Shown here one piece after another: positions 37,965-41,628 of a DNA stretch of 64,000 bases. Every line of letters starts with the position of its first letter. Within the stretch, counting starts at the first letter, position 1. Under the pieces are notes generated by a model, which saw nothing but the letters and a program-made list of their open reading frames with translations, searched no databases and had not been told where the DNA came from. The translations under genes were made by a program, and so were the position numbers. The stretch is from Eubacteriaceae bacterium (lineage in GTDB: Bacteria; Bacillota; Clostridia; Eubacteriales; Eubacteriaceae), in assembly GCA_017405085.1 (NCBI GenBank), contig JAFRBB010000051.1, forward strand, positions 1 through 64,000, written 5' to 3'.

Positions 37965-38186
37965 TTATTCAACTTCGACCATGCCTGCGTCTTCTTTTCT
38001 CAGACTGAGCTCATAGCCCCGGACAGTGATCTGAACCGGATCGCCAAGGGGCGCGACCTTTCTGACATAAACATCGGCGCGTTTGGTTAGGCCCATGTCC
38101 ATGATGCGACGCTTGATGGGGCCGTTGCCGTGGATGGCTTTCACGGTGACGGATTCGCCGGGCTCCACATCTCGTAATGTCCGCAT
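37965..38186 (-). CDS. feoA: FeoA, first gene of the ferrous iron operon
   Basis: 73 aa SH3-like protein: LRDVEPGESVTVKAIHGNGPIKRRIMDMGLTKRADVYVRKVAPLGDPVQI and the usual GYELSLRKEDAGMVEV end. It assists FeoB. AGGAGG six bases before MRTLRD gives the start. The promoter upstream is near-consensus and carries a 16-bp palindrome just downstream of the start site. Confidence 0.93.
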   Translation of the reverse strand: MRTLRDVEPGESVTVKAIHGNGPIKRRIMDMGLTKRADVYVRKVAPLGDPVQITVRGYELSLRKEDAGMVEVE

Positions 38187-38222
38187 TTTTGTCCTCCTTT
38201 CCCGTATCGAATAAAAATGATA

Positions 38223-38238
38223 GTCAGACGCGTCTGAC
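38223..38238. promoter_or_regulatory. Palindromic operator of the feo operon
   Basis: Perfect 16-bp palindrome GTCAGACGCGTCTGAC about 10-25 bases after the predicted transcription start. Placement suggests repression, most plausibly by a metalloregulator (DtxR/MntR or Fur type), but the sequence matches no consensus I can name with certainty. Confidence 0.6.
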
Positions 38239-38254
38239 AAAATAATCTATAATG

Positions 38255-38283
38255 AGTTTAGCACCACTAACAAATAATGTCAA
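38255..38283 (-). promoter_or_regulatory. Promoter of the feo operon
   Basis: TTGACA (38278-38283), 17-bp spacer, TAAACT (38255-38260) on the minus strand. Confidence 0.7.
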
Positions 38284-38299
38284 GGGCGCCAAACAAAAA

Positions 38300-39261
38300 A
38301 ATATACGGGAAATCAAACCTAAACGCCGGTCACTTTGTTTTTGAGTATTTCATGAATGACTTCGCGATACGGACGCCATTTTGACCAGTTTTCCCGCCTT
38401 GCTCAAAACCATCTCCACCCGCTTTGCGGGGTAAGTTCGCATGGACCAAATTAAAAATTTGGATGCTCACTTACGTTCGGGACGGCTGTCCCTCACGGGG
38501 GCACCGTCTAAAATACTGTTTCACAGCGTACGGCCTCCCCTAAATTAGGGGAGGTGGCGCCCGAAGGACGTCGGAGAGGTTCTAACGCGGAAAGGTGACA
38601 AAGAATAACACGCTATGTGAGCTTTTTGCCTATCTTTTTTGGGTCAGTTTTCTCGCTTCGCTCGAAAACATCCGCTCGGAACGGCTGTTCCTCGCGGGGC
38701 GCCGCTCGTCTCGCTCGCGGCTTACGCGATAAGCCCGAACCCTCCGCTTCGCTCTCGGGTTCGGCGTCCATTCGCACGCCGAGCTATCGCGCTATGTGCT
38801 CATGTCCGTTGCCTTGTCAAACGTCCGTATGCTTTGACGAATCGTAAGCTATGCGATAAGCCCGAACCCTCCGCTTCGCTCCCGGGTTCGGCGTCCATTC
38901 GCACGCCGAGCTATCGCTCTTTGTGCTCATGTCCGTTGCCCTTGCCCAACGGCCGTATGCTTTGACGAATCGTAAGCTATGCGATAAGCCCGAATTGCTT
39001 CGTTTCACTCCCGCAATTCGGCGTCCATTCGCACGCCGAGCTATCGCTCTTTGTGCTCATGTCCGTTGCCTTGTCAAACGTCCGTATGGCCTGACGAGCA
39101 AGCTCGTCGTCCATACGGCCGCTTGACAAGAGCTTATCGCTCAAACAAAAACGACGGCCCGTCGGCCGCCGCTTTCGCAAAGAGATGGTTCCATTCCCAT
39201 ATCGGGGGAAAGAGGAATGAATTAATGGTGTTAAATATGTGATCCCCACTGTCACACATTT
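38300..39261. other. Gene-free, repeat-rich region
   Basis: About 1 kb with no convincing gene on either strand. It contains a 32-nt sequence (38411-38442) repeated with two changes at 46947-46978, a hairpin-type repeat around 38530-38580 (CCTCCCC/GGGGAGG followed by TGGC), and the tandem repeats at 38727-39109. Short open frames here are repetitive and Ser/Arg/Pro-rich and are not believed. Confidence 0.7.
38727..39109. repeat. Tandem repeat, three units of 127-128 bp
   Basis: Units begin at 38727, 38854 and 38982 with CGATAAGCCCGAA. They share GGCGTCCATTCGCACGCCGA, GAGCTATCGC, TGTGCTCATGTCCGTTGCC and CGTATG. Units 1-2 keep a CCCGAACC...GGGTTCGG pairing, whereas unit 3 has CCCGAATTG...CAATTCGG, a compensated change. 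A single partial copy recurs at 46606-46660. Too long and imperfect for CRISPR. Confidence 0.85.
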
Positions 39262-39290
39262 AAAAACCCTCTCTTGATTTAGAGAGGGTT
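39262..39290 (-). terminator. Terminator downstream of the cobalamin riboswitch
   Basis: Perfect 10-bp stem AACCCTCTCT / AGAGAGGGTT with a 6-nt loop followed by TTTTTAAA on the minus strand; the expression platform of the riboswitch. Confidence 0.9.
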
Positions 39291-39350
39291 CATAAACATT
39301 TCCTGTTATGCTTCCTGAACACTCTAAATCGGAGCGTCTTCAGAACAATC

Positions 39351-39490
39351 ACTGTGCCGGTCTTCTGGCTTAACGATATCATCCGATGACCTTCCCATTC
39401 CGAAGAACAGTGGTGACTCATCGGCATTTCGCATCACAGCTGCGATTACAGCGCAAGATTCTCACTTGCTTCCCTATTTTTCACAGGATC
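39351..39490 (-). promoter_or_regulatory. Cobalamin (B12) riboswitch aptamer
   Basis: Read on the minus strand it shows the full B12 core: CCTGTG (pairing with CACAG at the 3' end), AATAGGGAA, stem GCAAG-TGAGAAT-CTTGC, GCTGTAATCGCAGCTGTGA, a variable arm with CCACTG, and AAGCCAGAAGACCGGC. It is preceded by a consensus promoter and followed by an intrinsic terminator, but no gene follows within the next ~1 kb until feoA, which has its own promoter. Confidence 0.92.
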
Positions 39491-39509
39491 ATCATATTTA
39501 ACTATAATT

Positions 39510-39538
39510 ATTATAGGAGTCTAACCCGGGATTGTCAA
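39510..39538 (-). promoter_or_regulatory. Perfect consensus promoter of the cobalamin riboswitch RNA
   Basis: TTGACA (39533-39538), 17-bp spacer, TATAAT (39510-39515) on the minus strand. Confidence 0.9.
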
Positions 39539-39592: not shown

Positions 39593-40330
39593 TTACAATG
39601 CGTCCACCGCTTTGCTCATGACATCCGCGATGTCTTCGTGGATGACGAGCTCCGCTTTGCTGTCTGCCGGGGTGGAGGATTTGTTGATGAGCACCAGGTG
39701 TTTTCCCCGGAAATAATCAATGAGTCCCGCGGCGGGATAGACGATGAGCGACGTGCCGCCGACAATGAGCATATCGGCTTTGCTGATGGCGTCCACCGCG
39801 CCGTTGATCTGCACGGGATCGAGGGCTTCTTCGTAGAGCACCACATCGGGCTTGACCAGACCGCCGCATTGATCGCAGGTCGGCACGCCGTCACACGCCA
39901 TGACGTATTTGTCATCGAAAAATTTGCCGCATTTGGTGCAGAAATTGCGAAGCACCGAACCGTGGAGCTCAAAGACGATCTCACTCCCCGCCTTTTGATG
40001 CAGCCCGTCGATGTTTTGGGTGACAACGGCTTTGCACTTGCCCATTTTTTCAAGCTTGGCCAGAGCGATGTGGCAGCCGTTGGGCTCAGCGTCGGGATAG
40101 ACCATTTTGTCTTTGTAAAAATCGTAAAAATCTTCGGTGTGATTCACAAAAAACGAATGGGATACCATTTGCTCCGGCGTGAATGTGGCGTGAAGCTTTT
40201 GATTGTAAATGCCTCCCGCCGAGCGAAAATCCGGAATGCCGGACGCCGTTGACACACCGGCGCCGCCGAAAAACACAATACGATTGCTTTCTTTTAACAT
40301 GGCCGTGAGTTGTTCAATTTGATTCATCAT
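39593..40330 (-). CDS. cobB: Sirtuin NAD-dependent protein deacylase
   Basis: 245 aa. Motifs: FFGGAGVSTASGIPDFRS (NAD binding), TQNIDGLHQKAGS, catalytic His in ELHGSVLRNF, four zinc cysteines (CTKC and CDQC), KPDVVLYEEAL, and VGGTSLIVYPAAGL. It removes acyl groups from lysines using NAD. GGGGG precedes two adjacent ATGs; the second is best spaced. The gene lies just upstream of the B12 riboswitch promoter but is not under its control. Confidence 0.95.
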   Translation of the reverse strand: MMNQIEQLTAMLKESNRIVFFGGAGVSTASGIPDFRSAGGIYNQKLHATFTPEQMVSHSFFVNHTEDFYDFYKDKMVYPDAEPNGCHIALAKLEKMGKCKAVVTQNIDGLHQKAGSEIVFELHGSVLRNFCTKCGKFFDDKYVMACDGVPTCDQCGGLVKPDVVLYEEALDPVQINGAVDAISKADMLIVGGTSLIVYPAAGLIDYFRGKHLVLINKSSTPADSKAELVIHEDIADVMSKAVDAL

Positions 40331-41217: not shown

Positions 41218-41628
41218 ATGATTGCATTAACCCATGTCCATGTTCCCGGCCGTAAAATTCGCCGCCTGTGCAGCACCCTGGGCGCAACGCTTTATAAACT
41301 GCGTAACTTCGAAGGTGAAAACGTCATTTACCGGGCGTTGGACGACAACACTGAAGTCCTCATTTTCGGTCTTGACAACATCAATAAAGATTTCAAAGGC
41401 GCAGTCGTTGTCTACAAAGACGGCAAAGAAGTCTCGAAAAAAGAATTCGAAGGCACCGAAGAAGACGCCGTGAAAGCTTTGGAAGAAGCAGTGAATCCCC
41501 CTGCTCCCAAAAAAGAAGAAAAGAAAGCAGAACCCGCTCCCAAAAAAGAAGAAAAAAAAGCGGAACCTGCTCCTAAAAAAGAAGAAAAGAAAGCGGAACC
41601 CGCTCCCGAAGCCCCCAAAGCTGAATAA
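41218..41628 (+). CDS. Small protein with PAPKKEEKKAE repeats
   Basis: 136 aa, not recognised. Residues 1-90 look like a compact alpha/beta domain (ALTHVHVPGRKIRRLCSTLG; ALDDNTEVLIFGLDNIN; GAVVVYKDGKEV). Residues ~92-130 hold three tandem copies of PAPKKEEKKAE plus a partial copy, a flexible charged tail encoded by near-identical 33-bp DNA repeats. No signal peptide. AGAGAGG precedes the ATG, and a promoter and strong terminator frame it, so it is a genuine, probably well expressed, single gene. Confidence 0.75.
   Translation: MIALTHVHVPGRKIRRLCSTLGATLYKLRNFEGENVIYRALDDNTEVLIFGLDNINKDFKGAVVVYKDGKEVSKKEFEGTEEDAVKALEEAVNPPAPKKEEKKAEPAPKKEEKKAEPAPKKEEKKAEPAPEAPKAE

Follow-up and report, generated by a model that had tools for sequence, protein, structure and literature searches.

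A cobalamin riboswitch without a gene

What does a riboswitch control when no gene follows it? The question is raised by a locus of a Eubacteriaceae bacterium (GenBank assembly GCA_017405085.1) lying in a stretch of 64,000 nucleotides (contig JAFRBB010000051.1, positions 1 to 64,000 of the forward strand; hereafter the window). An earlier note, made from the letters of this stretch, had described there an orphan cobalamin riboswitch with a perfect consensus promoter and a terminator, followed by about 1 kb of repeats and then by feoA with a promoter of its own. It proposed that the regulated gene had been lost and replaced by repeats, or that the RNA acts by itself, as a B12-controlled trans-acting RNA or a sponge. 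The locus has the following features, in window coordinates:

39593..40330, reverse strand: Sir2-type NAD-dependent deacylase (sirtuin), the conserved upstream neighbour
39510..39538, reverse strand: promoter of the riboswitch/sRNA unit, TTGACA-17-TATAAT
39339..39521, reverse strand: cobalamin riboswitch aptamer (RF00174), the predicted corrinoid sensor, from the family model
39315..39343, reverse strand: hairpin 3' of the aptamer, from sequence and fold
39322..39330, reverse strand: 5' arm of the antiterminator, GATTTAGAG, complementary at 9/9 positions to 39276-39284
39276..39284, reverse strand: 5' arm of the terminator, CTCTAAATC, partner of the antiterminator, pairing 9/9 with GATTTAGAG
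39262..39290, reverse strand: regulatory intrinsic terminator, predicted to be B12-dependent, from sequence and fold
38982..39139, reverse strand: full copy of RF01699 (Clostridiales-1), a dispersed repeat outside the regulator
38727..38951, reverse strand: two more, partial, tandem RF01699-like units
37965..38186, reverse strand: FeoA-like protein, the next gene downstream, named by reading its sequence

The description of the unit itself held. On the reverse strand RF00174 scores 74.3 bits at 39521-39339 (cut-off 31.5; E 1.8e-16) and is the single above-cut-off cobalamin riboswitch in the window; the promoter agrees with the consensus at 12 of 12 positions, and promoter-like hexamers are found at the equivalent place in relatives. 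No ORF large enough to be credible separates the riboswitch from feoA, whereas elsewhere in this genome cobalamin riboswitch matches are followed by ORFs at a distance of 63-445 nt. The arm GATTTAGAG comprises the loop and 3' arm of the post-aptamer hairpin, and its complementarity to the terminator arm was equalled by 27 of 20,000 shuffles. When the 3' arm of the terminator is included the RNA folds into the terminator, and without it the minimum-energy fold is the antiterminator; the window contains, in other words, an expression platform in which a terminator and a 9-bp antiterminator are mutually exclusive. The post-aptamer hairpin could correspond to P13, with its GATTTA-containing loop able to kiss L5. 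On the opposite strand a near-consensus promoter, TTCACA-17-TATAAT, lies inside the aptamer (39480-39508, forward strand); antisense transcription could start there and run toward the sirtuin gene.

The repeats of the earlier note fill part of the gap, as three tandem RF01699-like units at 38727-39139; the stretch of roughly 125 nt that separates them from the riboswitch terminator holds a conserved RNA module. RF01699 has 29 matches in the genome of the window, in dispersed and partly tandem copies with a 127-bp period, and looks more like a family of repetitive elements than a single-copy non-coding RNA. The idea that the repeats belong to the unit was rejected, since RF01699 is dispersed genome-wide and went unreported in Rfam scans of the relatives' loci. 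As had been noted, feoA has a promoter-like site of its own (38283-38255). Adjoining this site, the feoA leader (38210-38290) contains a perfect palindrome, GTCAGACGCGTCTGAC, together with TTAGTGGTGCTAA, both probable metal-regulator operators.

A conserved RNA module beyond the terminator

We looked up the upstream neighbour, the Sir2-type deacylase, in 60 relatives. In three other genera (g4, g8 and g9) a cobalamin riboswitch again lies directly downstream of the sirtuin gene, in the same orientation and with no gene after it, so that the gene-less riboswitch recurs in four genera of Eubacteriaceae (g1, g4, g8 and g9). These include Pseudoramibacter (g4) and the genus of Eubacterium aggregans and E. 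barkeri (g9); among the genomes are P. porci (G004), P. alactolyticus ATCC 23263 (G021), E. aggregans SR12 (G009), E. barkeri VPI 5359 (G015) and an uncultured Eubacteriaceae (G011). What follows the riboswitch terminator is a conserved non-coding module of about 90 nt with its own terminator, in the window as follows:

39178..39237, reverse strand: conserved core of the sRNA module, from the alignment of relatives
39207..39227, reverse strand: sRNA segment 1, CATTAATTCATTCCTCTTTCC, complementary to a ribosome-binding site and start codon (GGAGG...ATG)
39178..39188, reverse strand: sRNA segment 2 (seed), CCATCTCTTTG, nearly invariant in four genera
39147..39172, reverse strand: intrinsic terminator ending the read-through sRNA

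Few parts of the locus are as conserved as the module, in which TATTTAACNNCATTAATTCATTCCTCTTTCC is followed by a short hairpin with the closing stem CATTCC/GGAATG, then by GGAATGGAACCATCTCTTTG, a GC hairpin and a T-run. It occupies the space from the riboswitch terminator to the following feature in nine genomes of the four genera. Segment 2 is identical at 11/11 positions in 8 aligned sequences, and its variant in G008 is ACATCTCTTTG; the diverged modules of E. aggregans and E. barkeri retain CATTAA-TCCTCTTTC and CCATCTCTTTG. Both segment 2 and the CATTAA are predicted to be unpaired (0.67-0.96) in the RNAs of g1, g4 and g8.

A covariance model (R1) built from the g1 and g4 forms matched the window at 39146-39237 with an E value of 1.3e-14, the window sequence being among those used in training. 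It found one match per genome in the genome of the window and six relatives, six of these seven positives forming the training set and G008 being an independent find, and no match in any other of the 40 genomes of the family that were searched. The diverged modules of g9 escape this model and were identified from synteny and the two segments. An exact-pattern scan of the genome collection returned 89 stretches, with the riboswitch and terminator context confined to those of Eubacteriaceae. Candidates outside the family were set aside: among the 80 loci examined only Eubacteriaceae records looked real, and in one discarded locus (L283) a loose riboswitch motif matched and the remaining sequence was unlike the module. 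The module corresponds to no Rfam family at the gathering threshold, and the literature searched, mostly outside subscription journals, holds no description of it.

Because a conserved non-coding module with a terminator lies beyond the regulatory terminator, the 'gene' under control is most simply read as a small RNA. The alternative that a transporter or cob gene was lost, leaving repeats and an idle RNA, draws on the lack of an ORF before feoA and on the dispersed repeats in the gap. The three other genera have no repeats there and equally have no gene, the promoter, switch and terminators are intact, and the downstream module is conserved across genera. This conservation largely refutes such a loss, which we consider very unlikely; the riboswitch is no relic, and the comparison with relatives goes against the first proposal of the earlier note. 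Still less probable is that transcripts reading through over a long range place feoAB, or some other distant gene, under the riboswitch. In its favour, the first gene downstream on that strand of the window is feoA. Against it, the module is followed by another intrinsic terminator, at 39147, feoA has the promoter-like site given above, and the Pseudoramibacter neighbour is not feoAB, a lysine riboswitch coming next in four of five genomes. Least probable of all is a riboswitch-controlled, conserved small peptide encoded in the module. There is an ATG within GGAATGGAACC of the hairpin, but its frame runs for 17 codons in the window and 5 in P. porci and is shifted by an inserted T in P. alactolyticus, E. 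aggregans has no start there, and the pattern of conservation is not codon-like.

In the Pseudoramibacter-type tandem the lysine riboswitch stands directly after the B12-gated sRNA, with no protein gene between the two riboswitches. The regulatory terminator platform is weak or absent in four g4 genomes: these, of the P. porci type, have no obvious T-tailed regulatory terminator, and therefore the switch mechanism is expected to be a different one there. Their linker from riboswitch to module, with AAGAGGTCGGTTTGACGAATGGATCC, is invariant and is complementary to the sRNA's own seed; because of this complementarity, the linker may mask the seed as an internal mimic of the target (AAAGAGGUC-GGUU), in place of the regulatory terminator.

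Complementarity to the mRNAs of B12-dependent enzymes

The reverse complement of segment 1, GAGGAATGAATTAATG, resembles a ribosome-binding site followed by a start codon. Having predicted in advance that the target would be a 'B12-dependent enzyme', we scanned six genomes with this complement, allowing up to 3 mismatches, and obtained about ten hits in each. The recurrent orthologous hits were the starts of two adjacent genes, pduB and pduC, the latter encoding the large subunit of the B12-dependent propanediol/glycerol dehydratase. In pduC leaders the complement of segment 2, CAAAGAGA, precedes GGAGG by 3-7 nt, an arrangement expected if one sRNA paired at both places, so that the conserved segments are complementary, in colinear order, to the translation-start regions of B12-dependent genes. 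Segment 1 by itself was rejected as a predictor of targets: it is a near-generic complement of ribosome-binding sites, and genomes without the sRNA score too. Since it is in part a generic anti-Shine-Dalgarno sequence, the seed was used for discrimination.

The comparisons gave the following: 1) The bipartite pattern CAAAGAGA-N2..12-GGAGG matched the pduC leader in all seven g1, g4 and g8 genomes, and in four of them this leader was the sole match genome-wide. Other start-adjacent matches in sRNA-bearing genomes were eutB of P. alactolyticus, a corrinoid protein of E. aggregans and a few genes with no obvious link to B12. 2) A run of at least 8 nt complementary to segment 2 is present in the pduC leaders of 7/9 genomes with the sRNA versus 0/21 without it (Fisher 2e-5, a significance overstated by relatedness); the seven do not count as independent events, because the leaders are related by descent. 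The pduC leaders of g9 have no seed site. 3) In a sample taken without regard to pathway, 229 gene start regions from twelve 20-kb stretches spaced over one Pseudoramibacter genome (G017) were scored against its own sRNA. The best partner was the gene for the ethanolamine permease, eutH (Pfam EutH), with an 11-nt seed match and -27.6 kcal/mol versus -18.0 for the next; pduC was outscored by eutH only and pduB by three genes. 4) Runs of at least 9 nt occurred in 3/257 background genes, with all alternative starts allowed, and in 5/6 of the pduC, eutH and eutB genes of G017 and P. alactolyticus (Fisher 3e-8, for genes chosen post hoc). Several of these targets were examined since the pathway was already suspected.

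The eutH sites of the two Pseudoramibacter genomes differ in position, the 10-nt match of P. alactolyticus lying over the start codon, unlike the 11-nt match of G017. The eutB gene of P. alactolyticus has a match of 11-13 nt, according to the length of sRNA flank included, and two corrinoid proteins of E. aggregans have complements of 12 and 10 nt. Seed sites are absent from eutH and eutB of g9 and from the eutH leaders of g8. In a search of 22 genomes, an EutH subfamily with 82-87% identity to the G017 protein was confined to genomes bearing the sRNA; those without it have an EutH of about 45% identity, or none. The genome of the window and P. porci both bear the sRNA and have no EutH or EutB match; therefore ethanolamine control is not its purpose there, where pdu would be the target instead.

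Comparison with known RNA regulators

Small RNAs of the RyhB type are made under cofactor scarcity, are encoded in trans and pair at the ribosome-binding site or start of mRNAs for enzymes requiring the cofactor; RyhB itself is under the Fur repressor and uses Hfq. The RNA described here resembles them in its trans location, its predicted pairing at ribosome-binding sites and starts and its expected production when the cofactor is scarce, a likeness of logic; it differs in that the sensor is a riboswitch within the same RNA.

The closest counterparts among riboswitch-controlled RNAs are Rli55 of Listeria and EutX of Enterococcus, in which an AdoCbl aptamer with its own promoter causes premature termination in the presence of B12; the long non-coding RNA, made only without B12, silences B12-dependent ethanolamine use (PMC8079631, PMC5821096). 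In the window, too, a B12 riboswitch with its own promoter lies upstream of a non-coding RNA. Those RNAs, however, lie inside the eut locus and sequester the EutV protein by ANTAR hairpins, whereas the present module lies away from its putative targets and is complementary to pdu, eut and corrinoid-protein mRNAs. A read-through RNA acting in the same manner, by binding EutV (an ANTAR antiterminator), is improbable, if somewhat less so than the loss of a gene. The architecture and logic are alike (PMC8079631, PMC5821096), and genes for an EutV-like response regulator and a kinase, read from sequence, flank eut in Pseudoramibacter and E. aggregans. Yet the dual hairpins bound by ANTAR proteins, with A1 and G4 in their hexaloops, are absent from the modules of 8 species, none of which has even a single ANTAR-like hexaloop hairpin (A..G..), the sRNA is kept in the genome of the window and in P. 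porci, whose lack of EutH and EutB matches speaks against ethanolamine use, and complementarity to target mRNAs accounts for the conserved single-stranded segments. The same observations speak against a sponge of the Rli55/EutX kind, the other suggestion of the earlier note.

AspocR of Listeria is an antisense RNA gated by a B12 riboswitch that lowers pdu expression without B12 and acts in trans (PMC8079631). Keeping pdu down without B12 is also the role predicted here; AspocR, though, is a 1.4-kb cis-encoded antisense of the regulator gene pocR, and the present RNA is short, encoded in trans and complementary in part, at two separate segments, to several structural genes. No gene lies opposite the unit, and the complementarity is to distant mRNAs only. 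SreA of Listeria, a SAM-riboswitch fragment, acts in trans on another mRNA (PMC8079631) as the terminated short form, whereas the active part here would be the read-through form. The best model is thus a riboswitch-controlled non-coding RNA sharing the logic of Rli55/EutX and AspocR and differing in mechanism, and its conserved, accessible segments, complementary to several mRNA start regions, are those predicted for a trans-encoded sRNA.

Proposed mechanism and implications

We consider it likely, from the sequence evidence assembled above, that the locus is the gene of a B12-riboswitch-gated small RNA repressing B12-dependent mRNAs by base pairing; of the proposals of the earlier note, the B12-controlled trans-acting RNA is the one well supported by the module 3' of the terminator and its complementarity to such mRNAs. 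With B12 bound, transcription would stop at 39262 and yield only an inactive leader, about 250 nt long. When B12 is lacking, the antiterminator would form and allow read-through to the second terminator, with the RNA ending at 39147, which would add the module of about 90 nt with its anti-RBS/start 'CAUUAAUUCAUUCCUC' and seed 'CCAUCUCUUUG'. The seed would find the mRNA and segment 1 would cover the Shine-Dalgarno sequence and start codon, presumably of pduB and pduC in the genome of the window, and of eutB, eutH and corrinoid methyltransferase protein genes in relatives. Such pairing would block translation, and therefore the cofactor-requiring enzymes would be made only when the cofactor is present. 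The switch anatomy, the conservation of the module, its complementarity and the distribution of that complementarity are read from the genomes; from them we infer expression, the translational block and the part of any RNA chaperone. The direction of B12 control is likewise presumed, from the terminator class and by analogy with Rli55/EutX and AspocR.

Somewhat more tentatively, we favour the broader reading of a multi-target trans-acting sRNA that spares B12 by pairing with pdu, eut and corrinoid-methyltransferase mRNAs, occurs in at least four genera of gut-type bacteria, is retuned to the B12-dependent pathways of each genome and may be masked by a target mimic in genomes of the P. porci type. 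If this is true, RNA alone would make up a cofactor-sparing regulon, with sensor and effector in one molecule; known B12-riboswitch non-coding RNAs address one regulator each (the EutV protein or pocR mRNA), whereas several cofactor-requiring targets would be addressed here. A 2018 review pointed to Clostridium eut loci with no riboswitch nearby and asked whether an EutX-like sRNA is encoded elsewhere in the genome (PMC5821096); for a related family, the sRNA locus offers an answer that is concrete and can be tested. A further lesson is that the sequence downstream of 'orphan' riboswitches should be checked for RNA genes before they are labelled relics.

Elsewhere in the window, at 41503-41607, a 33-bp tandem repeat encodes the Lys/Glu/Ala/Pro-rich C-terminal tail (APKKEEKKAEP) of a small protein.
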